41,878 nt of DNA from Candidatus Acetocimmeria pyornia (GTDB lineage: Bacteria; Bacillota; Sulfobacillia; UBA3575). This document shows positions 2,563-38,661 of this stretch, piece after piece. Numbering within the stretch: position 1 is the first letter of the stretch; each line of letters begins with the position of its first letter. The stretch is from assembly GCA_004367365.1 (NCBI GenBank), contig SESX01000004.1, positions 1 through 41,878 on the forward strand, in the 5' to 3' direction. The position numbers and the translations under genes are program-made. The notes under the pieces were generated by a model. It was not told where the DNA came from and made no database searches. It was given only the letters and a program-made list of their open reading frames with translations.

Positions 2563-2927
2563 GGATTCCGAGACGAAGCGCAGGGCACCAGAGTTCTGCC
2601 GCTCACTATTTTAGCGGGAACGTCCAGCTCAATTGGAGTCCCATCCCTGTAAGCCGTCCTGACGCCGATGGTCAATATGACCGTCGTCCCGTTCTTGACT
2701 GCCGTAACCGTCCCGGTAGAACCATCCCAGTCCACTTCGGCACCGAGGGCCTCAAAGATACCCCGGAGGGGGACCAGCGTGCGGCCTCCTTCGATCATCG
2801 GTGGGACATCGAACGAAAGCTGTTCACCATCAAGAAACGCTCTTGGTGCTGCCAAACCAGATGCCGTGAAGACGAAAAAGATAAGCGTCATCATCACGGC
2901 GATATAAACAAAGCGTTTGAAGTTCAT
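2370..2927 (-). pseudogene. N-terminal part of the stalk/propeller protein, out of frame with its body
   Basis: The ATG at 2927 has a strong aggagg ribosome binding site (2934-2940) and starts a signal peptide (FVYIAVMMTLIFFVFTASG). A copper amine oxidase N-terminal/stalk domain follows, with two RTLVP signatures typical of secreted Clostridia proteins. After the second RTLVP the frame becomes nonsense (CASSRNPWG), whereas the +1 frame reads LRFVSESLGAGVEW, the expected continuation of this domain, and runs into the propeller frame. Adding one C to the ccc run near 2592 restores a single protein of about 645 residues. Upstream in-frame starts exist but lack a ribosome binding site. It is either a real frameshift or a homopolymer sequencing error. 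Confidence 0.75.
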
Positions 2928-3099
2928 ATGCAGTCCTCCTAACTTTTTTGGGCAATGTCGAATAAGAGACTTAATGTCAAATATAATTAGAGCTCTTAAA
3001 CCATTAAGGGTTTGATCTTTAGAAATCTTCATTTCTCATTCGGCTCTTATTCTATACCACCTTTTTTGGAACAGCATTCGCTGCGCTGCAAAAAATTTC

Positions 3100-3248
3100 C
3101 TTCTGGAAAATACAGAAATTAGCCAGTATTTAGAAGTTACTATCGAAATAATGTGGTTGTTTAATCCCTGGAGAGAGAAGTCCATGTTGCTGTTTCCTTC
3201 ACTCTCCAGTCTTCTCCCCCGGTGTACTGCTGAATCATCTTGGCAGCC
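3100..3248 (-). pseudogene. nrdD: Fragment of anaerobic ribonucleotide reductase (NrdD)
   Basis: Read on the minus strand, this stretch spells QQYTGGEDWRVKE, then after one missing A NSNMDFSLQGLNNH, then TSKYWL. These blocks, in this order, are the conserved DWRVxENSNM..SLQGLN..YWL region near the N-terminal part of the class III NrdD catalytic domain. A second frame disruption follows about 10 codons later. The remainder of the roughly 600-700-residue enzyme is absent and the upstream side is fused to group II intron sequence. It is a dead remnant; a functional nrdD must be elsewhere if the cell needs one. Confidence 0.65.
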
Positions 3249-3452
3249 ATTGAGCTTGGGCTTCGTTGTTGTGCAAGCTCATCCAGCTGCCACTAGCCTC
3301 ACCTAGGGTTCGTGGTCCTCGGGCCGGAGGCTTGCCGCCGGCTTCCTTCAGATTCTGCGTCGCCGCAGACACCCTTGCCTTGAGCTCACGGCTACTGCTA
3401 CCTTCGCCGTTCGGGACTTTCACCCTAGCGACAACGCCCATGCCGGGCGCAC
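3249..3452 (-). mobile_element. Group II intron fragment, 5' end and domain I part
   Basis: On the minus strand the segment begins at 3452 with GTGCGCCCGGCATGGG, the usual bacterial group II intron 5' end. The landmarks of domain I follow in order: GGGTGAAAGTCCC, TCTGAAGGAAGCCGG, GGTGAGGCTA, and a GGATGAGCTTGC..AACGAAGCCC block. The reverse transcriptase gene and domains V-VI are missing, and the sequence passes directly into an nrdD remnant at about 3248. It cannot splice. A protein frame of 86 codons crosses this RNA but has no relation to any enzyme I know. The subclass is uncertain. Confidence 0.75.
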
Positions 3453-3453
3453 A

Positions 3454-3486
3454 CAAACGCGGAGCGGGTCCTTCGAAGACCCGCTC
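3454..3486 (-). terminator. Terminator-like hairpin at the intron 5' junction
   Basis: A perfect 9-bp stem (gagcgggtc 3462-3470 with gacccgctc 3478-3486) closes a 7-nt loop. On the minus strand it is followed by ccgcgtttgt and then immediately by the intron 5' end. Some group II introns insert just 3' of terminator stems, so this is probably the original insertion context. The T-tract is weak, so terminator activity is uncertain. Confidence 0.45.
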
Positions 3487-15882: not shown

Positions 15883-16164
15883 CTAACCGAACTTATACAT
15901 AACCCCGTACCCGCCCCTGGGGTTACCCCAGTCAATGTTGCTGTAGGGACACCCGTAGAGGCAGGCTCCACACTCCAGGCACCCTTCGTAGGCCATGATG
16001 ATCTGTTCCCTCTCCTCGTTCCAGGCGTAAACCTCGGCCGGACAGATATAGGTACAGGGTTTCATGTCACACTTTTCCAGGCAGGCTTTTGGGTCGGCAA
16101 TTTCCAGGTGGGAGTGGTTATCGGGCCGGTAGCGGTTCCAGTAAAGCTTGTCTTCTACCTTCAT
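15883..16164 (-). CDS. fixX: Ferredoxin-like protein FixX
   Basis: FixX is the small iron-sulfur partner of FixC in the FixABCX bifurcating complex and passes electrons between the flavoproteins and the quinone-reducing FixC. The 93-residue protein from the ATG at 16164 has the motif pattern of ETF:quinone oxidoreductase ferredoxin domains: CDMKPCTYICPAEVY and CLECGACLYGCPYSNIDW. The start shares one base with the fixC stop codon (TGATG), supporting translational coupling. A start 12 codons upstream would overlap fixC with no benefit. It is the last gene of the operon. Confidence 0.95.
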   Translation of the reverse strand: MKVEDKLYWNRYRPDNHSHLEIADPKACLEKCDMKPCTYICPAEVYAWNEEREQIIMAYEGCLECGACLYGCPYSNIDWGNPRGGYGVMYKFG

Positions 16165-17456
16165 CAACCCATCACCCTCCAGGCACGGAAAAGGTCCCAC
16201 CCAATTCCAGCCAGCGAGATTTCTGCGCGAATTCGCTTCAGGATTTCGGCCTGTTTCTTCTTTTTTGGCACCCCGTCCACGGTCACAAACTGGTAGGCAA
16301 CCTCGTTAACCAACCGCGGATACTTGCTGAAAAACTGGGGGTTTTCTTCAAAAAAGCTCATGGTATTCCGGTACTTTCTCAAATCCTGGAGAACATAGGT
16401 TTTCTCCAGCCTGCGCCGGTAAGCCGATAAGAATTCCTCCGAAAACTCTCCGGCATCCCAAGCCTCAACAGCTGTTTCCCCGGCCAGCCGGCCGGAGGTG
16501 GCGGCCATATTGGAACCCTCGCCGTGAATCGCATTAACCAGCATCGCCGCATCCCCCACCACCATCAGGCCGTCTCGGACCAGTTTGGGGATGTTGCGGT
16601 AGCCCCCTTCTGGGATCAGGTGGGCCGCGTATTCCTTGCTTTCGCCCCCTTCAATCAGGGGTTTGACCACGGGGTGATTTTTCAATCCTTCCAGGATGTC
16701 ATTGGGACTGATCTCAGCTTGGATGATGTCGGAAAGTAGGGCCCCAAAGCCGATGGAGATAGAATCCCGGTTGGTATAGATAAACCCGGTTCCTACCAAC
16801 CCTCGGGTTGCTGCGCCGACAATCTCGATGCTGACCCCTTCGTCTTCCTCGAGATTAAACCGGTCCTCGATCCTTTCCTTGGGAAGAAAAACCACCTCTT
16901 TCACCCCGACCGCCAGGTGCTGTGGTGGGATATCCCCGCGCATCCCTGCTTTCCTCGCCAGGAGGGCGTTGACCCCCTCTGCCAGCACCACCACGTCGGC
17001 CCGGAGATCACCGTCTTCACGGTCAGTCCTGACCCCCACGATGCGCCCGTCTTCATAGAGAAAGTCTTCTACCACTGTCTCGCTAATCACCAGGGCTCCT
17101 GCTTCCTGGGCCCGGTCGGCGTACCACCGGTCAAACTTCGCCCGGAGCACCGTAAAGGCATTGGGCTGGTCCTTGTACACCGGGTTTCTGTACCCTGCCG
17201 TAACGGCCGAGTCATCATCCAAAAGCCAGAGCCTCTTTTCAATGACATTTCGTTCAAGAGGGGCTTCTTTCCAGAACTCGGGAACTAGTTCCTCAGTCGC
17301 ATGCCGGTAGATAACCCCGCCCATGACGTTCTTGGAGCCGGGGTACTCGCCCCGTTCCAAGACCACGACTTTCATCCCCGCCCGGGCCATGGTTAGCGCC
17401 GCCGAAATACCTGCCGGACCGGCTCCGACTACCGCAGCATCAAACTTTTCGTCCAC
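16164..17456 (-). CDS. fixC: FixC, ETF:quinone oxidoreductase-type flavoprotein
   Basis: A 430-residue FAD protein. The Rossmann dinucleotide motif lies at residues 9-14 (VVGAGPAGISAA), and a second FAD signature sits near residue 310 (DGLMVVGDAAMLVNAIHGEG). FixC accepts electrons from FixAB and, with FixX, delivers them to the quinone pool at the membrane. The arrangement fixA-fixB-fixC-fixX is complete, so the complex could oxidise NADH with simultaneous ferredoxin and quinone reduction, as described for FixABCX in diazotrophs. No nitrogenase genes occur in the window, so here the ferredoxin may serve other reductions. It overlaps the 3' end of fixB by 28 bases. Confidence 0.95.
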   Translation of the reverse strand: MDEKFDAAVVGAGPAGISAALTMARAGMKVVVLERGEYPGSKNVMGGVIYRHATEELVPEFWKEAPLERNVIEKRLWLLDDDSAVTAGYRNPVYKDQPNAFTVLRAKFDRWYADRAQEAGALVISETVVEDFLYEDGRIVGVRTDREDGDLRADVVVLAEGVNALLARKAGMRGDIPPQHLAVGVKEVVFLPKERIEDRFNLEEDEGVSIEIVGAATRGLVGTGFIYTNRDSISIGFGALLSDIIQAEISPNDILEGLKNHPVVKPLIEGGESKEYAAHLIPEGGYRNIPKLVRDGLMVVGDAAMLVNAIHGEGSNMAATSGRLAGETAVEAWDAGEFSEEFLSAYRRRLEKTYVLQDLRKYRNTMSFFEENPQFFSKYPRLVNEVAYQFVTVDGVPKKKKQAEILKRIRAEISLAGIGWDLFRAWRVMG

Positions 17457-18580
17457 GGTCTTCCCCCTTTCGCCCCGGCTCTCGGCGAACTTAACTTTGC
17501 TTTAAACTCTCTGGTCAAAGCCGGTACAATCTCAAAGAGGTCACCTATGATACCGTAAGTAGCCACTTTGAAGATTGGAGCCTTCGGGTCGTTGTTGATG
17601 GCAACGATGACATCAGAGGTCTGCATCCCCACCAGGTGCTGAACTGCTCCCGAAATACCAATGGCAAAATACACCTTGGGACGCACCGTGATCCCCGTCT
17701 GCCCTACCTGGTGTTCCGCTGAGATCCATCCGGCATCCACCGCCGCCCGTGAGGCCCCCAGGGTCCCTCCCAAGACATCGGCCAGTTCCTTCAAGAGCTC
17801 GAAATTGGCCGCATCACCGAGACCTTTCCCGCCGGCCACGATCACCTCGGCTTTATCCAGGTAGACAGCTTTTCCCTTTTCCTCGATGGTCTCGAGCACC
17901 CAGGTTCCAATCTCGTCTTCGGCAAGAAAGAGGTCTTCACGCACAACCTCCCCGGAACGTGATCCATCTTTTTTGGGCATCTCCATCACCCGCGGCCGCA
18001 CTGTTGCCATCTGGGGGCGGTGCTTCTTGCAGATGATGGTGGCCATCACGTTGCCGCCAAAGGCAGGCCTGGTCTGCTTGAGAAGGCGTGTTTCCGGGTC
18101 AACTTCAAGCCTGGTACAGTCAGCGGTGAGACCGGTCTCCAGTTCCGTGGCCACTGCCCCAGACAAGTCCCTGCCGAAGGTGGTCGCCCCCATGAGCAGA
18201 ATTTCGGGCCGGTACTTCCTCACCAGGTCGACGGTGGCCCTGGTGTAAGGGTAAGTACGGTACGTGGCCAGTACCGGGTCATCTACCAGGTAGACCTTTT
18301 TCGCCCCGTAGGCAATGGCCTCGCCGGCCAGGTGTTCTACCCCATCCCCAAGAACTACCGCTTCCAGCGGCACCCCGAGCTCAGAAGCCAGCTTTGTTCC
18401 CACCCCCATCAGTTCCCAGGAGACTGGGGCGCCCTCACCAGCAGTCTGCTCCACAAGAACCCATACTCCCCGGTAGCTTTCCGCAGCCGCAGGCGGCTTG
18501 TAACCCCTTACTGCAGCTCTCCTGTAAGCCCTTCTCAACCGGCGCACCAGCACACCATCCTCCAAACCGAAGTTCACCAT
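17429..18580 (-). CDS. fixB: FixB, electron transfer flavoprotein alpha subunit
   Basis: A 383-residue EtfA-family protein. The C-terminal FAD-binding domain carries the family signature (VGQTGITVRPKVYFAIGISG, followed by AVQHLVGM and VAINNDPKAPIF), with the N-terminal alpha/beta domain before it. An N-terminal extension of about 37 residues (RLRRAYRRAAVRGYKPP) is basic and arginine-rich, and not typical of simple EtfA; its role is unknown. With FixA it forms the bifurcating heterodimer that takes electrons from NADH. It lies between fixA (142-base gap) and fixC (overlap). A second EtfA, with a ferredoxin domain, is encoded at 35476-36693. Confidence 0.94.
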   Translation of the reverse strand: MVNFGLEDGVLVRRLRRAYRRAAVRGYKPPAAAESYRGVWVLVEQTAGEGAPVSWELMGVGTKLASELGVPLEAVVLGDGVEHLAGEAIAYGAKKVYLVDDPVLATYRTYPYTRATVDLVRKYRPEILLMGATTFGRDLSGAVATELETGLTADCTRLEVDPETRLLKQTRPAFGGNVMATIICKKHRPQMATVRPRVMEMPKKDGSRSGEVVREDLFLAEDEIGTWVLETIEEKGKAVYLDKAEVIVAGGKGLGDAANFELLKELADVLGGTLGASRAAVDAGWISAEHQVGQTGITVRPKVYFAIGISGAVQHLVGMQTSDVIVAINNDPKAPIFKVATYGIIGDLFEIVPALTREFKAKLSSPRAGAKGGRPWTKSLMLR

Positions 18581-18722
18581 ACCGTCCTTCGCTTCGATCC
18601 CCAGGCCGTCTTCAGCACAGCCGTGCCAGCCCCACCTTGGACCATGAACCCTGCTCGTCCGGAATCAACCCTTGGCCCAGGCCTCACGGCAACAAAGCAG
18701 AGGAAACAGACAATCTTACAGT

Positions 18723-19541
18723 CTAGATGTCAGCAATAACCTTCTCCACCACCAAGAGTTCAACCAGCCTGGCAGCAGCTTCCTCGGGGTCATCCCCCTC
18801 CCGGGCAATAATTTCACCACGGTCACGCGGTGCGGGCGGGAAAATTTTCGTCACCGCCGTCGGTGACCCTTTGAGCCCCATTCTTTCAACTTCACCATCA
18901 AGGTCCTTTTCATCCCAGACCTCGATTTCGGACCGGGCCGCTTTGATCATGTTGGGAAGCGAAGCCCGGCGCAGCTCGTTTATTTCCTTAACCACCGTCA
19001 GCAAAGCCGGGAGGCGTGCCCTTACCCTTTCCCGGGCACCGTGGAGCTTGCGCTGGACGATGATCTCCCCCTTGGTAAAGTCAACAGCTTCAATCTCCAT
19101 GACATAGGTAAGTTGGGAAACCCCCGTCCGGGTGGCAATACCCGGTCCTACCTGGGCCGTGTCCCCATCAATAGCCTGTTTCCCACAAAAGATCAGGTCA
19201 ATCCTCTCTTCGGCATCAATCTTCTCCAGTGCTTCTGCCAAGATATAGCTCGTGGCCAGGGTATCCGAGCCGGCAAAGACCCGGCTCGAAAGGAGGATCG
19301 CCCTGTCGGCACCAAAGGTCATCGCTTTCTTCAATGCGTCCCGTGCCTGGGGTGGACCCATGCTGAGCAGGGTGACGGTACCGCCGTACTTTTCCTTGAG
19401 GCGAACCGCCTCTTCTACCCCGTGGACATCGTAGGGGTTAATGATTGACGGAACACCTTTACGTTCAAGGGTACCGGTCTTACGGTTAATCTTTACCTCG
19501 GTGGTATCGGGAACTTGTTTGATGCAGCAGACGGCGTGCAC
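18723..19541 (-). CDS. fixA: FixA, electron transfer flavoprotein beta subunit
   Basis: EtfB-family protein of 272 residues. I chose the GTG at 19541 because it gives the family N-terminus VHAVCCIKQVPDT and follows a ggaaggaggggca ribosome binding site. Longer frames would add 39 residues with no ETF similarity. Family motifs present are KRKGVPSIINPYD-like sequence near 25-40 (ERKGVPSIINPYDVHGVEEA), SMGPPQAR and CGKQAIDGDTAQVGP (AMP or FAD site of bifurcating Etf). In bifurcating complexes FixA carries the flavin that splits electrons. It starts the fixABCX operon. The region upstream (19542-19872) has no gene. Confidence 0.94.
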   Translation of the reverse strand: MHAVCCIKQVPDTTEVKINRKTGTLERKGVPSIINPYDVHGVEEAVRLKEKYGGTVTLLSMGPPQARDALKKAMTFGADRAILLSSRVFAGSDTLATSYILAEALEKIDAEERIDLIFCGKQAIDGDTAQVGPGIATRTGVSQLTYVMEIEAVDFTKGEIIVQRKLHGARERVRARLPALLTVVKEINELRRASLPNMIKAARSEIEVWDEKDLDGEVERMGLKGSPTAVTKIFPPAPRDRGEIIAREGDDPEEAAARLVELLVVEKVIADI

Positions 19542-19872
19542 ATTGCCCCTCCTTCCTGCAGCCTCCCAATGGAAAACTTCCTGCACATGTTGCTCCCCAT
19601 GCAGGCCCGGTCTTGTTCCTGCGTTCACACGCCCCGTGAAAATATGAACCATGGGCAATTTCCATTCTCCAGGGTGGTGTCCCGTTTTGGCAACATGGGC
19701 AGCCCGTCTTCCTCTTCCCCCAAATGCCTACCACCTTAAGTAGTTTCTCCATCGAGAACTATTTTTATTGAAAACCATCCCCCCACCACCCACGGTTCCC
19801 AGGATTTTTTCTCTTTCCTAAATTCCCCAACCAAACCGGCCCGGAAAAGAAGCCCTGCCCGGCCAACCGCGG
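19542..19872. other. Intergenic region upstream of fixA, no gene seen
   Basis: I find no convincing coding region here. Its left part must hold the fixA promoter and leader. Its right side is bounded by the terminator of the YbjQ gene. A minus-strand frame continues upstream from fixA, but its composition does not look protein-coding. Confidence 0.5.
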
Positions 19873-28784: not shown

Positions 28785-28877
28785 CTAAACCCCTCTTCCC
28801 TTCCTGAGCCCAGGAGTTATCTGCACTAAGAACCCGACCAGACGGCATCTCTTCTACGAACATACCACTACCTGCCT

Positions 28878-28966
28878 CGCCAGGGGTGCTCCTCCACTCG
28901 CCTTTCCTATTCCTCGGCCCTCCGGGCCTGCGGCATAACCGGTCTCGCCCCGGAGCATCCCTGGCG
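28878..28966 (-). other. Long stem-loop upstream of hdrC
   Basis: cgccaggggtgctcc (28878-28892) pairs with ggagcatccctggcg (28952-28966) over 15 positions with a single wobble. The 59-base interior contains a second stem, ggccc/gggcc. No T-run follows, so it is not a simple terminator. It is too structured for chance in this GC range. It could be an untranslated-RNA hairpin, a MITE-like inverted repeat, or part of the larger structured region beside it. Confidence 0.65.
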
Positions 28967-29029
28967 TGCAACTCATGTTCCTACCCGATCAAAAGCCCGC
29001 TGAATACCGGGTCCAATTTTCATTCTTCG

Positions 29030-29400
29030 TGGTGCCGCCGCGCCGCAAGGCGGCATGGAGCACTTCCACGAAAATGCCCCACCGGCGCCGGCCTTCCTTC
29101 GCGGCGTCACGCTCACCGTATACTTGTAATGAACCTCGGCGGCTCCGGGCCGCAGCCGCCAACTCACCCTCCGGGCCTAAACAGGTGGCTGCGGCTGGTC
29201 CTCCGCCGCCTGTGGTTCTCGAACTCGTTCGCTGATGGCCGCTCAGGAAGCCCGCGCCTCCCCGTTCGTTGCCACCCCTGATGGACACCACAGTAACCGG
29301 CTTGTTCCTGATTTTCGTGCTTCCCCTCCCTTCTTCCTTTACGGCATCGTGCCGAGACCAGAACTTCAAGCTACCCTTCCCGGCGTGAGGGAGCATGGGA
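29030..29400 (-). ncRNA. GC-rich hairpin-rich region, possible structured RNA of unknown type
   Basis: Three closely spaced stems are visible: tgccgcc/ggcggca (29033-29039 with 29049-29055), ggcggct/agccgcc (29138-29144 with 29154-29160), and caggtggc/gccgcctg (29182-29189 with 29205-29212, one wobble). Frames crossing the region are low-complexity and unlike any protein family I know. A HEARO/omega-RNA-type element left by an IscB/IsrB-like transposon, with no protein gene retained, is one possible explanation. A remnant of another mobile RNA is a second. The strand and borders are guesses; only the hairpins are observed. Confidence 0.3.
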
Positions 29401-29727
29401 CTACCTGCAGGACAAAAAAGAGAAAAAGAGTTCTTTCACGAGTCCCCCTCAACATCCCCACTCTTCTCCCTCTCCGCTACAGGAACAAGAATACCTTTTT
29501 CCGGCCGGGCCTGGCCCTGTCCAGCGTCAAAATGGTACAGAAGACAGGATTCTTACAGGACTTACCCGACGATGAAGTTTCGGAAGTTTCGTAACACTGT
29601 TGTTAGGCTTTGTACTTACCGCCTGGCACCTCATTGGATTCATTCAACGAATCTGCACCATTTCCTTCTTCTCCCCAAAGGGTATCAGGCAGGCCTGATT
29701 TTCACGAGGGACGAGAAAGCTCAACAG
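29400..29727. other. Intergenic region downstream of the sensor kinase, no gene seen
   Basis: I see no convincing gene. A short palindromic stem (atcaggc/gcctgat at about 29686-29701) lies 25-40 bases after the kinase stop codon but has no T-run. A pyrimidine-rich stretch occupies 29405-29480. Confidence 0.5.
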
Positions 29728-31212
29728 CTACCCCCCTGCACCCATTGGCCCCGCCACGGGCAGGATAAAGGTGAAGGTTGTCCCTTTCCCCAGCATGCTT
29801 TCGACACTGATTTCCCCCCCGTGCGCGGCGATGATCCCCTTGACAATCGCCAGGCCCAGTCCGGTTCCTCCGCCTTTGCGCGTCCTGGCCTTATCAACTT
29901 TGTAAAACCGCTCCCAGATATACGGAAGCTCATCTTCCGGAATTCCCTCTCCTGTATCAGATACCTTCACTTGGAGCCGTCCCGCCCGGTCCTTCACTTC
30001 AATCCGAACCACGTCACCACTCCCTGTGTACTGGAGGGCATTACTGACCAGGTTGATGAGCACCTGCTCCAAGCGGTCGGCATCACCGGCAACGAGGGGA
30101 AGACCTTCCGGTACAATGGCCTCGAGCTTAATCCCGTTTTCCCTGGCCCTGGGCTCCAGTTTGGATACCACAACTTTGATGAGTTCATCCATGGCCACCG
30201 GGCCGCGCTCGAGGACGAGTTTTCCTTCCTCAATCCGGTGCAGGTCAAGGAGGTCGTCTACCAGTCTCCTTAATCTCAAGGTTTCGTCGTGAATAATGCT
30301 CAGGTAGTTGCTGCGCTCTTCCTCGGTTTTCGGAAGATCATCCTTCAAGGCTTCAGTATAACCCTGAAGGTAACTCAACGGGGTTCTCAGTTCGTGGGAA
30401 ACATTGGCCACGAATTGGCGCCGCCTCTGCTCGATCCTTTTTTCGGCCGCGGTCTTCTTTTTCAATTCCTGGCTCAGGTAATTCAAGCTCCTGGCGAGGG
30501 CACCTATTTCGTCCCGTGAATCCTCCGGAACCTGGCCGGTAAAATCCCCACGGGCCATATCGAGGGCAATGCGGTTCATCTTGAGCAAGGGGCGCGTGAT
30601 CTTTCGGGAAAGCACCAAGCTCAAAACCGTCGCCACAACAATGGCCCCGCCGCCGGCGTAAAGGATCAAGAGACGAACGGTTTTAATGGTCTCGGAAATC
30701 GGTTCCATGGGAGCATAGAGCAAGACAGCCCCCGCGATCTCGCCGTCCCGGATGATGGGTACAGCGGCAGTAAGAAGGGTGGTCTCGAAATCCTGGTGGT
30801 AGCCACGCTTGACCACCACGTTGCCCTTCAAAACCTCGTTCACCTCATCGGTATTGAGGCGCACCCCGTGCTGCATCATCATCATCCCGGTCATGCCCCT
30901 GTGGGCACTCCTACCCATATACCCGGAGCCTGAACACATCCTGACCATTCCCTCTGGGTCGATGATAGTTATGTTGGCGTCAACAAAGGAAGCCATGAAC
31001 TCGACCTGCCGGCCAACCATCGGGTTGCTGATGGGATACTCGGCCAGAATTTCGGCCAGGCGGGTCCCATCGTCCACCAGTTTTTCTGACTTCAGTTCAT
31101 AGTAAAAACCGGCAAAAAGCTCGGAGAAAACCAGGCCCAGAAAGAGCAGGATGATAACGGCGAAGACAATAAAGCTTATCCAGAGTTTCCCAACTATACT
31201 GCGGAAAAACAT
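29728..31212 (-). CDS. Sensor histidine kinase with Met/His-rich extracytoplasmic loop
   Basis: A 494-residue kinase from the ATG at 31212. TM1 is at about 10-32 and TM2 at about 181-203; the sensor domain between them contains a striking Met/His/Cys segment at about 89-115 (VRMCSGSGYMGRSAHRGM, then TGMMMMQH). A HAMP domain (203-255) leads to the HisKA box with His273 (VSHELRTPLS), the N box at Asn391, the G1 box DTGEG and the G2 box GGGTGLGL. All catalytic motifs are intact. Met/His clusters suggest metal sensing, such as copper. The small Met-rich secreted protein encoded just upstream supports a shared theme. No response regulator gene is adjacent. An ATG six codons earlier is an alternative start. 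Confidence 0.92.
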   Translation of the reverse strand: MFFRSIVGKLWISFIVFAVIILLFLGLVFSELFAGFYYELKSEKLVDDGTRLAEILAEYPISNPMVGRQVEFMASFVDANITIIDPEGMVRMCSGSGYMGRSAHRGMTGMMMMQHGVRLNTDEVNEVLKGNVVVKRGYHQDFETTLLTAAVPIIRDGEIAGAVLLYAPMEPISETIKTVRLLILYAGGGAIVVATVLSLVLSRKITRPLLKMNRIALDMARGDFTGQVPEDSRDEIGALARSLNYLSQELKKKTAAEKRIEQRRRQFVANVSHELRTPLSYLQGYTEALKDDLPKTEEERSNYLSIIHDETLRLRRLVDDLLDLHRIEEGKLVLERGPVAMDELIKVVVSKLEPRARENGIKLEAIVPEGLPLVAGDADRLEQVLINLVSNALQYTGSGDVVRIEVKDRAGRLQVKVSDTGEGIPEDELPYIWERFYKVDKARTRKGGGTGLGLAIVKGIIAAHGGEISVESMLGKGTTFTFILPVAGPMGAGG

Positions 31213-31330
31213 CACGTCACCCGCTTTCATACCAGGACCGTTTGGTCACCTTCTCAAATATTTACCTCAAATCCTCAGCTGCGGCTCACTACTTGCTCGT
31301 TGTTCCTTGCTTTGCTGCGAAAATGCCGTT

Positions 31331-31423
31331 TTACCTTTTCCCCTCTTTGTGGCCGCCTTCTGAAGCAGTATCTTCGGCCAACCAATCAGTTTTAGGGTAT
31401 TTTGATCCCATGATTTTCTCCAT
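31331..31423 (-). CDS. Possible 30-residue peptide gene
   Basis: A short frame starting at ATG 31423 reads MEKIMGSKYPKTDWLAEDTA and ends SEGGHKEGKR. It is preceded by a purine-rich agaagag. The composition looks protein-like, and it lies alone in the 280 bases between the terminator at 31512-31549 and the kinase gene. I know no relatives, so it may be chance or a fragment. Confidence 0.2.
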   Translation of the reverse strand: MEKIMGSKYPKTDWLAEDTASEGGHKEGKR

Positions 31424-31511
31424 GGTCTCTTCTTTTCACCAACCCCGTGACACCGGGTCGAAGAAGAACAAGTAACCAGCCAACCCATCTTATATTGTAG
31501 CACTCCCGGTC

Positions 31512-31549
31512 GAAAAACCAAAGGCATCCCCGCATCCATGGGGAATGCC
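31512..31549 (-). terminator. Intrinsic terminator after the Met-rich secreted protein gene
   Basis: On the minus strand GGCATTCCCC (31540-31549) pairs with GGGGATGCC (31523-31531), with one bulged base, followed by TTTGGTTTTTCG. It separates the small secreted protein gene from the histidine kinase, so the kinase needs readthrough or its own promoter. Confidence 0.78.
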
Positions 31550-31652
31550 TCTGGTAGGGTGAAGAGGAGTATTGCCGTATATTACTTCTATGTTGAGTGT
31601 ACCGCTCAGTACCGCTGCAGACCTTCTGTCTGGCATCAATTACTTACTGCCA

Positions 31653-32051
31653 CTACTGGGCCGAACCAAAGCCCGGAGTAAGCGTCGGTGCAAACCCGCC
31701 GCGCCAGCCCATCTGACCGTAACCCATCATTCCGTAGCCCATCATTGGGCCGTATCCAGCCGGGCCAAAGCCCATCATACCGCAACCATAACCGTAGCCA
31801 TACCCGGCATTGGGGTTTTGCTGCCAGTACTTGTAGTTAAGGTCCAAGCGCTCCTTCAGAAAGTTCCCCTGTTCCGGTGTTATGAACCCTAGAGCAACGT
31901 ACTTGTCAAGAATCTGCTTCCGGATGTTCACCAGCTGTTGGTACAGGTCAGCCAGCTCCTGGTCGATCCCTTCTTCGGCCGCCAGGGCAGTCGGCACAAA
32001 GAACGCAACAAGCAGCAGCACCGCCAGCCCGATTACAATCTTCTTTTTCAC
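31653..32051 (-). CDS. Secreted DUF2680-like protein with Met/Gly/Tyr-rich tail
   Basis: A 132-residue protein with a signal peptide (KKKIVIGLAVLLLVAFFVPTALA), then a helical DUF2680-like domain (ELADLYQQLVNIRKQILDKY, then GFITPEQGNFLKERLD). The tail of about 45 residues is very rich in Gly, Tyr and Met, including CGMMGFGPAGYGPMMGYGMM. Such tails can bind soft metals or self-assemble; the function is unknown. I chose the GTG at 32051 because gggagg lies 8 bases upstream. A GTG three codons earlier overlaps that site. Three direct repeats at 11-bp spacing lie about 65 bases upstream, so an OmpR/PhoB-type regulator probably controls it. Confidence 0.8.
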   Translation of the reverse strand: MKKKIVIGLAVLLLVAFFVPTALAAEEGIDQELADLYQQLVNIRKQILDKYVALGFITPEQGNFLKERLDLNYKYWQQNPNAGYGYGYGCGMMGFGPAGYGPMMGYGMMGYGQMGWRGGFAPTLTPGFGSAQ

Positions 32052-32115
32052 AGGTTTCACCTCCCTCCATGTCCGTGATTTCGATTTTAATTTTAGACAT
32101 GACTTTTGTTAGTTC

Positions 32116-32143
32116 TGTGAGGGAAAGGTGAAGAATTTGTGAA
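32116..32143 (-). promoter_or_regulatory. Three direct repeats at 11-bp spacing, OmpR/PhoB-type operator
   Basis: On the minus strand TTCACA (32138-32143), TTCACC (32127-32132) and CTCACA (32116-32121) occur exactly one helical turn (11 bp) apart. This is the layout bound by OmpR/PhoB-family response regulators. A possible -10 element, TAAAAT, follows about 20 bases downstream, and the secreted DUF2680-like gene starts about 65 bases downstream. The sites probably activate that gene and may serve the neighbouring kinase. Confidence 0.6.
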
Positions 32144-35475: not shown

Positions 35476-36693
35476 TCAGCCGGTGCTTCTTTTCCGGTAA
35501 GCTGTATTACTTTCTTGCAGGGCCTCCAGAAGTTCCTTGACCACGAGGCGGTAATCCCCCACGATACCGAAATCCGCAACTTGAAAAATCGGTGCCTCCG
35601 GGTTCTTGTTGACCGCCACCACCCATTCTGAACCCTGCATCCCGGCCACATGTTGAATGGCACCCGAGATTCCGCAGGCGAGATAAAGCCTGGGGCGTAC
35701 CGTCTTGCCCGTCTGTCCCACCTGTCGTTCCTTGGAAACCCACCCGGCCTCCACCGCTGCCCGGGAGCCAGCCACCTCCCCGCCCAAGGCATCTGCCAGT
35801 TCCTGCAGGAGGGCAAATCCCTCGCGCCCTCCAACCCCACGACCCCCAGCCACCAGGAACTCAGTGTTCTCTATCCCCCCGCCCTGGGATGGCTTCCTCA
35901 CGTACTGGACTACCTGGAGAACCAGGTCCGAAGGAGCAAACTCTACTTCCTCTCTAACCACCCGACCTGTTCTTTTCGGGTCAGGAGTGGCCGGGGTAAA
36001 TGTCCCCGGACGTACCGTGGCCATCTGGGGCCTGTGGTTGGGGCAGGTAATGGTGGCCATCAGGTTTCCCCCGAAGGCCGGCCTGGTCTGAAGCAAAAGC
36101 CTGGTTTCTGGATCCAGGTCGAGGGCCGTACAGTCGGCAGTTAACCCGGTCCCCAGGCGCGCGGCAATCCGCGGGGCCAGGTCCCGTCCAAGATGGGTTG
36201 CACCCACCAGGATAATTTCCGGCCGATACTTCTCTATCAACCGGGTGCATGCCGTGGCGTACGGGCCAGTACGGTAGTTGGCCAGTGCTTCATCCTCAAC
36301 GAGGTAGACCGTATCAGCTCCAGACCAGAGCAGGTCTTGGGCCAGGTCAGCCACCTGGTCGCCAACCAGGACAGCCGCCACTTGAACTTGGAGTTCATCG
36401 GCCAGACGCCGCCCTTCAGCCAGGAGTTCCCTGCTCACCCTGGCCAGGTTCCCGTGCCTTTGCTCGGCCAGAACCCAAACCCCTTCCCACCGGGCCCTTG
36501 GTTTCTCGCCCTGGACCTGGTCGGCCGGCTGGGAAAGAGCCCCCTCCGGGCACTTTTCGACACAGGCACTGCAGTCCGTACAGGCTGGACTGATCCAGGC
36601 GATCCCGTGGACAATCTCGATTGCTTCAAAAGGGCAAGCCTCAACACATACTCCACATCCAGTACATGCACTGCGTTCTACCGTCACCGTCAC
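35476..36693 (-). CDS. etfA: Electron transfer flavoprotein alpha subunit with N-terminal 2[4Fe-4S] ferredoxin domain
   Basis: A 405-residue fusion. Residues 1-60 form a ferredoxin domain with two motifs (CTGCGVCVEACPFEA and CTDCSACVEKCPEGA). The rest is a full EtfA with FAD-binding signatures (QVGQTGKTVRPRLYLACGI, then SGAIQHVAGM). Such ferredoxin-EtfA fusions occur in anaerobes with bifurcating acyl-CoA dehydrogenases or similar complexes; the extra clusters could pass electrons to or from ferredoxin. It follows etfB by 22 bases and ends an operon with an acyl-CoA dehydrogenase. It is distinct from fixB at 17429, which lacks the ferredoxin domain. The GTG at 36693 is the start. Confidence 0.94.
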   Translation of the reverse strand: MTVTVERSACTGCGVCVEACPFEAIEIVHGIAWISPACTDCSACVEKCPEGALSQPADQVQGEKPRARWEGVWVLAEQRHGNLARVSRELLAEGRRLADELQVQVAAVLVGDQVADLAQDLLWSGADTVYLVEDEALANYRTGPYATACTRLIEKYRPEIILVGATHLGRDLAPRIAARLGTGLTADCTALDLDPETRLLLQTRPAFGGNLMATITCPNHRPQMATVRPGTFTPATPDPKRTGRVVREEVEFAPSDLVLQVVQYVRKPSQGGGIENTEFLVAGGRGVGGREGFALLQELADALGGEVAGSRAAVEAGWVSKERQVGQTGKTVRPRLYLACGISGAIQHVAGMQGSEWVVAVNKNPEAPIFQVADFGIVGDYRLVVKELLEALQESNTAYRKRSTG

Positions 36694-36715
36694 TTCAAAT
36701 CCCCCTCACCGTCAG

Positions 36716-37498
36716 TCAGATCACTTTCCGCTCCCGAAGCCTGGCAAGCAGGGCCCGAGCCGCTTCACCCGGGGAGCCGGGAATTACCTCTCCTTCCCCC
36801 CTGGGCTTCGGGGTATAAGTCTTGTTGACTTTGGTAGGCGAACCATCGAGACCAGCCTGTCCCTGCTCAATACCCAGGTCCCGGCTGTTCCAGGTGATGA
36901 TCTCCATCTTCACCGCCTGGACAATCCCCCTGATGGAAGGGTACCTGGGGCTGTTAATCTCTTCGGTCACTGTCACCAGCGCAGGTAACCTGGTCTTGAC
37001 CTTTTCGAACCCATCCTCTAGGGCCCGTTCAGCCACCAGGCAGCCGTCTTCTAGATGCAGTTTACAGGCATAGGTAACCTGGGGAACACCGAGATACTCG
37101 GCAAGCTGCGGCCCCACCTGGGCCGTATCACCGTCGATGGCCTGGCGACCGCAAAGGACCAGGTCCCAGTCCCTGATCTTGCGGACCGCCGCCGCCAGCA
37201 CCTGGGCAGTGGCATGGGTATCTGATCCCGCAAATGCCCGGTCGGTCAAAAGGACGGCCCGGTCACCCCCCATGGCCAGGGCCTCACGCAGGGCCTTCTC
37301 GGCCTGTGGGGGTCCCATGGTAACTACTGTTACCTCGCCCTGGCACCTTTCTTTGATCCGCAAGGCCTCCTCCAGGGCATGCTTGTCCTCGGGGTTGATA
37401 ATCGACGGGACCCCTTGGCGGATCAGAGTCCCTTTCTTGGGATCGATCCGGACCTGAGAGGTGTCAGGTACCTGTTTGATACATACGATGATTCTCAC
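36716..37498 (-). CDS. etfB: Electron transfer flavoprotein beta subunit
   Basis: A 260-residue EtfB from the GTG at 37498, which gives the family N-terminus VRIIVCIKQVPDTSQV and is preceded by aggggtg. The longer frame (up to 37816) overlaps the acyl-CoA dehydrogenase gene and has no ETF similarity. Conserved blocks are VTMGPPQAEKAL and LCGRQAIDGDTAQVGPQL. With the ferredoxin-EtfA fusion it would supply or withdraw electrons for the acyl-CoA dehydrogenase encoded just upstream. Bifurcation to ferredoxin is likely for an anaerobe but not proven by sequence. It sits 23 bases after that gene. Confidence 0.94.
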   Translation of the reverse strand: MRIIVCIKQVPDTSQVRIDPKKGTLIRQGVPSIINPEDKHALEEALRIKERCQGEVTVVTMGPPQAEKALREALAMGGDRAVLLTDRAFAGSDTHATAQVLAAAVRKIRDWDLVLCGRQAIDGDTAQVGPQLAEYLGVPQVTYACKLHLEDGCLVAERALEDGFEKVKTRLPALVTVTEEINSPRYPSIRGIVQAVKMEIITWNSRDLGIEQGQAGLDGSPTKVNKTYTPKPRGEGEVIPGSPGEAARALLARLRERKVI

Positions 37499-37521
37499 CC
37501 GGCCCACCCCTTTTCCAAGAT

Positions 37522-38661
37522 TTAACGGAGAATGTTTCCGGCAATGACCATCCGTTGAACCTCTGACGTGCCCTCGTAGATCTCGGTAATCTTGGCGTCG
37601 CGCAGGTATCTTTCCACCGGGTAATCGGTCATGTAGCCGTAACCACCGTGTACCTGAAGGGCTTTCACCGTGTGCCTCATGGCCATCTCCGAGGCATACA
37701 GTTTGGCCATGGCCGCTTCCTTGGTATGGTTCAGTCCACGCCCGCGCCGGTAGGCCGCCTGGTAGGTCAAGAGGCGGGCCGCCTGGATTTCGGTCGCCAT
37801 GTCGGCGATCATCCACTGGATGGCCTGGAAACGGCCGATGCTCCTCCCGAACTGTTTCCGCTCCCGGGCGTACTTCACTGCTGCTTCATGGGCCGCCTGG
37901 GCAATCCCGACCGCCTGGGCGGCAATGCCAATCCGCCCGCCATCCAGGGAAGCCATGGCCAGCCTGAAGCCCTCTCCCGGTTTCCCCAGGATATTCTCCC
38001 TGGGAATCCGGCAGTCGTCAAACACGAGCTCGGCCACGGCGGAAGCCCTGATCCCGAGGGTCTTCTCCGGCAGCCCAACGGCAAAGCCAGGGGTACCCTT
38101 TTCCACCAGAAAGGCCGAGATTCCCTTGATACCCTGGCTCCTGTCGGTCTTGGCCATCACCACGAAGATATCCGCCAGCAGGGCGTTGGTAATAAAGATC
38201 TTGGTACCATTAAGAACCCAGGTGTCCCCGTCAAGAACGGCAGTGGTTTCCAGGGCCCCCGCATCAGAACCGGCGTTGGGCTCGGTCAAGGCAAAACCGC
38301 CAATTGTCTCCCCCCGGGCCAGGGGAGCCAGGTATTTCCTTTTTTGTTCCTCGGTACCGTAGTGATAAATCGGTTCGGCACAAAGGCTGGTGTGGGTTTC
38401 ACAGGCTACCTCCAGGGCGGCACAAACCCGCGCCAGTTCCTCCATGGCGATGATATAGCTCAGGTAACTGGCCCCAGCACCCCCGTACTCCTGGGGGATA
38501 GGAATACCCCAGAAATTGTACCGGGACATTTTCTTGACAAGTTCTTCGGGAATTCGCCCCTTCTCATCCATCTCCGCGGCAATGGGGGCAATCTCCCTCT
38601 CCGCAAATTCCCGCACCATCTCGCGAACCATTTCCTCTTCGCGGTCCAGGCTAAAATCCAT
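37522..38661 (-). CDS. Acyl-CoA dehydrogenase, probably butyryl-CoA type
   Basis: A 379-residue FAD-dependent acyl-CoA dehydrogenase. The ATG at 38661 (MDFSLDREEE) has ggggag 9 bases upstream; two earlier starts exist. Family blocks are GGFALTEPNAGSDAGAL, VLNGTKIFITNA, the FAD/dimer segment RKQFGRSIGRFQAIQWMIAD and the catalytic-base region ITEIYEGTSEVQR with its glutamate. It sits between thiolase and etfBA, and with the 4-hydroxybutyryl-CoA dehydratase of the same operon it should interconvert crotonyl-CoA and butyryl-CoA. Whether it oxidises or reduces in vivo depends on the Etf. Substrate length is inferred from context. Confidence 0.92.
   Translation of the reverse strand: MDFSLDREEEMVREMVREFAEREIAPIAAEMDEKGRIPEELVKKMSRYNFWGIPIPQEYGGAGASYLSYIIAMEELARVCAALEVACETHTSLCAEPIYHYGTEEQKRKYLAPLARGETIGGFALTEPNAGSDAGALETTAVLDGDTWVLNGTKIFITNALLADIFVVMAKTDRSQGIKGISAFLVEKGTPGFAVGLPEKTLGIRASAVAELVFDDCRIPRENILGKPGEGFRLAMASLDGGRIGIAAQAVGIAQAAHEAAVKYARERKQFGRSIGRFQAIQWMIADMATEIQAARLLTYQAAYRRGRGLNHTKEAAMAKLYASEMAMRHTVKALQVHGGYGYMTDYPVERYLRDAKITEIYEGTSEVQRMVIAGNILR

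Follow-up and report, generated by a model that had tools for sequence, protein, structure and literature searches.

A sensor kinase with a methionine-rich loop and a DUF2680 secreted protein as probable parts of one envelope and soft-metal stress system in Candidatus Acetocimmeria pyornia

The locus

We have analyzed two neighboring genes of Candidatus Acetocimmeria pyornia (Bacillota, class Sulfobacillia), one for a sensor histidine kinase and the other for a small secreted protein of the Pfam family DUF2680. They lie in a stretch of 41,878 nucleotides (contig SESX01000004.1 of assembly GCA_004367365.1, positions 1 to 41,878), which we call the window. Both genes are on the minus strand, the DUF2680 gene 422 bp upstream of the kinase gene. 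An earlier note on this DNA had described the two as adjacent, and with that gap they are. The features we refer to below are:

29728 to 31230, minus strand: sensor histidine kinase, 500 residues (Pfam and AlphaFold model)
30868 to 30939, minus strand: Met/His/Cys-rich sensor loop of the kinase, residues 98-121, MCSGSGYMGRSAHRGMTGMMMMQH (sequence; alignment to the motif of relatives)
31231 to 31652, no strand: spacer of 422 bp, which holds a response regulator in relatives with the same gene order (tblastn)
31653 to 32060, minus strand: DUF2680 secreted protein, 135 residues, GTG start, signal peptide (PF10925, E-value 4.7e-15)
31818 to 31961, minus strand: DUF2680 helical hairpin, residues 34-57 and 62-81 (Pfam 34-82; AlphaFold predicted local distance difference test, pLDDT, 78-95)
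31656 to 31805, minus strand: Met/Gly/Tyr-rich tail, residues 86-135, predicted disordered (sequence; pLDDT <50)
32090 to 32095, minus strand: -10-like hexamer TAAAAT, 31 nucleotides after the second half-site and 29 nucleotides before the start codon (spacing in relatives)
32116 to 32143, minus strand: TTCACA-N5-TTCACC-N5-CTCACA, three direct half-sites with an 11-bp period, proposed box for an OmpR-type regulator (shuffles; relatives)

The sensor kinase and its loop

The kinase matches HAMP (1.6e-14), HisKA (1.7e-22) and HATPase_c (3.2e-33), and it is built in the order transmembrane segment, extracytoplasmic PAS/sCache-like domain, transmembrane segment, HAMP, HisKA, HATPase_c. This is the architecture of an OmpR-type sensor kinase, with a phospho-acceptor histidine, H279, that is invariant across the family alignment. 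The protein may start instead at the methionine at residue 7, as its relatives do. Many curated kinase models match it, with a score under every cut-off shown. It falls outside the WalK model NF033092 (339.4 bits vs. a cut-off of 725) and outside TIGR01386, the model for the heavy-metal sensors CzcS/SilS/CopS/CusS (189.1 bits vs. 292.55). We do not file the kinase under CusS.

The AlphaFold model of residues 1-260, based on 16 aligned sequences, has a mean pLDDT of 82 and consists of a first transmembrane segment, a mixed alpha/beta extracytoplasmic domain, and a second transmembrane segment. Foldseek places this model closest to the extracellular domain of WalK/YycG and to PDC-type sensors. 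The loop at residues 98-121 links the second and third strands of the sensor domain; it is the part of the model with the lowest confidence, and it is probably flexible. Its Met/His-rich character had been pointed out before, and the letters then quoted are exact. In the nearest kinase family the methionine cluster is a motif at a single position, V(D/N)xxGLVxxC-(G/S)-x-M-M-x-M-x-x-G-(M/T), and M117 of the window kinase is invariant in the 10 aligned sequences of that family.

The DUF2680 protein

With 55.9 bits against a gathering score of 25 bits, the secreted protein belongs to PF10925, and the window gene is the only DUF2680 copy in the genome. The family is present in 140 of the 398 genomes sampled from the phylum, and in the open-access literature we found a lone incidental mention of it. 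A single-sequence AlphaFold model shows a signal helix, the hairpin, and a disordered tail. The tail, which includes CGMMGFGPAGYGPMMGYGMMGYGQM, is just as the earlier note had quoted it when describing a secreted protein with a Met/Gly/Tyr-rich end.

A structure search with the hairpin returned nothing informative. When PDB sequences are searched with the full DUF2680 profile, ZraP (3lay) ranks first at an E-value of 0.02, and ZraP also ranks first (0.016) in a small test with 147 E. coli open reading frames. In hhalign comparisons with the ZraP/CpxP superfamily, DUF2680 reaches 90-94% with the tail and the signal peptide included, and 4% with the domain only. Neither PF07813 (CpxP/Spy) nor PF13801 (ZraP/CnrX) is listed as a match to DUF2680 up to an E-value of 10. 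We considered DUF2680 as a distant ZraP/CpxP homolog and rejected it, because the similarity of the full profile is lost once the tail and the signal peptide are removed.

As a separate observation, two relatives (genomes G523 and G398; L112 4307-5197 and L113 5320-6273) have three DUF2680 domains per chain, encoded divergently from a regulator-kinase pair.

DUF2680 genes are linked to regulator-kinase pairs

The DUF2680 hits came from 154 genomes in the class and 398 in the phylum. Loci were chosen for DUF2680 alone, and the regulators and kinases around them were scored with profiles built for this analysis. A regulator-kinase pair lies at most 1.5 kb away in 29 of 91 DUF2680 loci. In these linked loci DUF2680 is upstream and co-directional 16 times, downstream 4 times, divergent 5 times, and convergent 4 times. 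Counting regulators by distance, there are 31 within 2.5 kb of DUF2680 (477 kb of DNA), and 3 beyond (428 kb). By chance we would expect linkage in 1-5% of loci, which gives a P of 1e-17 or lower for the observed 29, an optimistic value since related genomes are not independent. The pairing of DUF2680 with regulator-kinase pairs is thus more than chance, and the conserved co-occurrence in relatives that had been proposed as a check on the earlier note is present.

The kinases of the linked loci also tend to have methionine-rich sensor loops. By the criterion of at least 3 methionines per 20-residue stretch of the loop, 15 of 25 linked kinases have one vs. 4 of the 45 that are unlinked (p 8e-6 by Fisher's test, an optimistic value since the sequences are related). 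Of these 4, 2 are members of the same kinase family. Asking instead for at least 4 residues of Met, His and Cys together gives 16/25 vs. 6/45. A second, distinct family of DUF2680-linked kinases (L170, L172, L178, L184 and L185) has a Met/His motif of its own in the sensor loop, similar to MMQGMHGRRW, which suggests that the association between kinase and DUF2680 arose more than once.

Could the two window genes be chance neighbors, with a shared methionine richness that is just compositional? The gap of 422 bp has no regulator inside, and Met/Gly tails are found too in DUF2680 proteins that have no kinase linked to them. Set against the observed rate of linkage, its occurrence in several separate regulator clades, and the methionine enrichment of the linked kinases, this explanation is very improbable.

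Two loci depart from the usual arrangement. In G019 (L106, 4677-7515) a related regulator-kinase pair is followed by a PF07813 gene (LTXXQ, Spy/CpxP-family) in the place of DUF2680, and in G275 (L152, 2077-2364) the regulator is separated from DUF2680 by a SHOCT-domain gene.

A conserved box at the DUF2680 promoter

Upstream of the DUF2680 gene are the three half-sites listed above. The region marked in the earlier note ended at 32143, the first base of this box. None of 5000 shuffles reached the score of the three half-sites. We picked the box consensus after seeing the window site, therefore the real test lies in the relatives. There, a box score of at least 15 out of 18 is found in 30 of 97 DUF2680 upstream regions vs. 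1 of 602 control regions, which lie upstream of the loci's other genes. The distance to the promoter is also conserved. Of the 37 DUF2680 promoters that have a strong box, 20 show a -10-like hexamer at precisely +31, when shuffling predicts 0.4.

A pattern search through the phylum gave the +31 spacing in 38 of 81 rows, and a second peak that is nearer by one step of 11 bp; with the reversed pattern as a control, all genomes together yielded 8 matches. For the exact 17-mer there are 32 sites, in 25 genomes, vs. 1 for the reversed control. In the genome of the window, the box core TTCACANNNNNTTCAC occurs once, at the DUF2680 promoter. The earlier note had offered three roles for the secreted protein, namely buffer, ligand carrier or target; it is the role of target that the conserved operator-like box favors.

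An orphan regulator is very probably the partner of the kinase

The earlier note had stated that there is no response regulator. This holds for the neighborhood. A tblastn search of the spacer with 91 regulators yielded chance matches of 14-15 residues and no regulator remnant, and Rfam has no RNA element between the kinase and DUF2680 genes. For the genome as a whole it does not hold. The closest homolog of the kinase, 48% identical over the whole protein, is in genome G026, where a regulator precedes the kinase. That regulator finds its best match in the genome of the window (62%) in an OmpR-type orphan encoded on contig C316 (positions 2780-3481), after lgt. The other four OmpR-type regulators of the genome (on contigs C112, C37, C43 and C77) each adjoin a kinase.

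The best Blast matches of the C316 regulator, at 60-65% identity, are all beside kinases with the methionine motif. In a tree of 68 sequences, it falls in a clade of regulators of Met-motif kinases (support 100/96), together with regulators from other DUF2680-linked loci, and the four other OmpR-type regulators of its own genome fall outside. Because of this clade membership and these matches, and because no other regulator of the genome is in the clade, the C316 regulator is very probably the partner of the window kinase, from which a rearrangement very probably separated it. The window kinase might instead phosphorylate another regulator, for instance one of the four that have their own kinases, leaving the C316 gene as an unrelated orphan. 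In favor of this, the pairing of the kinase with C316 is deduced from sequence, in an assembly of 327 contigs. Given that C316 is placed in the clade of regulators that adjoin this very kinase family, we find it improbable.

On the other side of the kinase, the intergenic region downstream (28785-29727) has a dispersed repeat, of which versions with 79-90% identity are present elsewhere in the same genome, on contigs C317 (L081), C316 (L090), C112 (L076) and C301 (L084).

Other genes behind the box suggest envelope and copper stress

Box sites in relatives precede, in addition to DUF2680 genes and genes for small Met-rich secreted proteins (L335, L343), a range of other genes. HtrA-type proteases are the most frequent genes other than DUF2680 (L346, L348, L358, L359, L404 and L405, in six genomes), and all three that were scanned have Trypsin_2 and PDZ domains. 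In G163, G280 and G357 both a DUF2680 and an HtrA gene are under the box; in G309, G333 and G427 it is the HtrA gene. A secreted accessory protein and an HtrA/DegP-type protease sharing one box is a mark of a Cpx-like regulon, and it is in relatives that we find it.

Also under the box are an ATPase of the CopA type that has two HMA domains (L353), a DUF2933 protein rich in His (L390), a Metal_resist/ZraP-family protein (PF13801; L380, in G484), a GMMGG protein that matches cupredoxin marginally (L375), other Met/His-rich proteins, HlyD (L392), AcrB-type (L383) and DUF3298 (L362) genes, a SHOCT protein with a Met/Gly/Tyr stretch (L407), and an SLH-like protein judged by eye (L341). In G209 the box precedes a regulator gene (L354) whose product is 49-54% identical to the clade of C316. 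Three further sites, L350, L356 and L364, are inside genes and are probably due to chance. Genomes with an exact-spacing box have a strong Met-motif sensor more often (15 of 29) than those without a box (58 of 369; p 2e-5).

A relaxed search of the genome of the window found a second candidate site on contig C87 (L416, 93-146). It is located behind the gene for a CsoR-family metal-responsive repressor (PF02583, 3.9e-32) and before a reading frame that has a good ribosome site and a start resembling a signal peptide, and that runs off the contig. Because about 2 matches are expected by chance, we take this site as a lead only.

There are two narrower explanations. The first is a CusS-type response dedicated to Cu+/Ag+, in which the loop would bind the metal directly, DUF2680 would buffer it (as CusF or a Met-rich scavenger would), and envelope proteins such as HtrA would be side targets. 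Copper sensing by CusS of E. coli involves a flexible loop in the periplasm, with a Met triad at M133-M135 and a stretch of His at 136-148 (PMC10100754); in the window loop, MMMM adjoins His, and there is a Cys as well. The CopA, DUF2933, cupredoxin-like and Met/His-rich genes behind the box, and the CsoR-family gene by the second candidate site, fit this explanation as well. It has to contend with HtrA as the commonest other gene, with the TIGR01386 score, and with the lack of any metal transporter recurring immediately beside the linked loci, and we consider it unlikely.

The second is a response to secretion stress or envelope misfolding of the CssRS/CpxAR type, for which the Met-rich loop and tail would be protein-contact or disordered segments and not metal sites. 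The HtrA proteases agree with it, as CssRS of B. subtilis governs htrA genes (PMC12826053), and so do the LTXXQ-family gene that replaces DUF2680 in G019 and the Metal_resist gene with a box in G484. Yet the C-x-GMM-x-M motif is position-specific, it and the Met/Cys/His enrichment resemble soft-metal ligands, and copper genes are under the box too. We regard this explanation also as unlikely, to a similar degree.

Comparison with known systems

ZraP of E. coli is a zinc-stimulated chaperone whose zinc-bound form represses its own system, and CpxP represses the Cpx response until misfolded proteins titrate it away from CpxA (PMC10848872). In E. coli, cpxP and zraP are each divergent from their own two-component system. 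The window system resembles ZraP-ZraSR in having a small secreted helical protein with a tail rich in Gly, Met, His and Cys beside a kinase-regulator pair. The two differ in the regulator, ZraR being a sigma-54 activator and that of the window system OmpR-type, and DUF2680 has neither a ZraP match after removal of tail and signal nor a match to PF13801.

With CpxP-CpxRA, the window system has in common an OmpR-type regulator and a secreted helical target that adjoins the system, and, in relatives, HtrA/DegP-type proteases that share the box with the secreted protein. The kinase sensor and the box sequence differ from those of Cpx, and DUF2680 is not PF07813. CusS-CusR resembles the window system in the flexible Met/His loop of its extracytoplasmic sensor (PMC10100754), but we see no CusCBA/CusF locus, the window kinase scores below TIGR01386, and its sensor domain resembles WalK-type PAS folds. 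CssRS is a case of two-component htrA control in a Gram-positive bacterium, (PMC12826053); neither DUF2680 nor a Met-rich loop is reported for it in the texts we consulted. Finally, the kinases WalK/YycG and PhoR/PnpS share with the window kinase the catalytic half and the extracytoplasmic PAS fold; the window kinase falls below the curated equivalog cut-offs shown, and has the Met/Cys motif in place of the usual loop.

A proposed mechanism

The genomes themselves record the pairing of the genes, the kinship of the regulator, the box with its fixed spacing, and the make-up of the genes behind the box. From these we propose that the kinase and DUF2680 are the sensor and the target of one Cpx/Zra-like two-component system for envelope and soft-metal stress, to which we give a probability of about 0.62. 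The signal, the metal binding, the feedback, and the binding of the box by the regulator are steps that we infer. The kinase would monitor the extracytoplasmic space through its PAS/sCache-like domain, where the Met/Cys/His cluster, in place of the usual loop, would most likely be a detector of soft metal (Cu+/Ag+) or of envelope damage. It would phosphorylate the OmpR-type regulator on C316, which would then bind the TTCACA-N5 repeats and activate the DUF2680 gene, and in relatives also HtrA proteases, a copper ATPase, and ZraP-family and Met/His-rich proteins. The secreted DUF2680 protein, with its hairpin and Met-rich tail, could act as a chaperone or a metal buffer, and possibly exert feedback on the kinase in the manner of CpxP and ZraP.

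Several observations weigh against this proposal. The regulators of the linked loci are scattered over several clades of the tree instead of forming a single one. A pooled Pfam scan of 122 neighbors found no metal-transport family recurring beside the linked loci, so that metal transporters as fixed neighbors are rejected. The kinase is not a member of TIGR01386, and a PDB search with the domain-only DUF2680 profile misses ZraP. The C87 site has 3 mismatches, within the number of matches that chance would give. The box is as frequent at unlinked DUF2680 genes as at linked ones, and it resembles other OmpR/PhoP-type boxes. Moreover, of 34 regulators of the clade that were tested, only 2 have the box in front of their own gene, and G209 adds one more case. 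Autoregulation is therefore rejected as a general proof that the regulator reads the box, and because an autoregulatory box is so rare in the clade, the assignment of the box to a C316-type regulator is indirect, drawn from linkage and clade.

The earlier note had proposed a metal or envelope-stress sensing pair. The co-occurrence and the role of DUF2680 as a box-bearing target speak for a pair. As for the signal, the genomic context (HtrA, CopA, ZraP-family and cupredoxin-like proteins, and a CsoR neighbor) leans to a combined envelope and copper-type stress over one named metal.

A broader possibility, which we put at slightly under even odds, is that this represents an undescribed and widespread envelope-plus-copper regulon of Bacillota-like bacteria, with a C-x-GMM-x-M kinase, an OmpR-type regulator, a TTCACA-N5-TTCACA box at a fixed distance of 31 nucleotides from the -10, and DUF2680 both as the signature target and as a feedback protein like CpxP/ZraP. 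If true, this would be the first function for DUF2680, a Pfam family without an assigned one, which the link to the box, to a kinase family with a candidate soft-metal site, and to HtrA and copper genes makes testable. The findings suggest that Bacillota-like bacteria have an envelope response of the Cpx/Zra type, and the box could provide a simple DNA signature with which to read the regulon from any genome of the group.

Other features of the window

Elsewhere the window holds a CdaA-CdaR-GlmM run and WhiA, in keeping with an origin in Bacillota. Judging by translations only, it also has two separate sets of electron-transfer flavoprotein alpha/beta genes (16164-19658 and 35476-37816), and the gene at 35476-36693 of the second set encodes a ferredoxin-like N-terminal extension.

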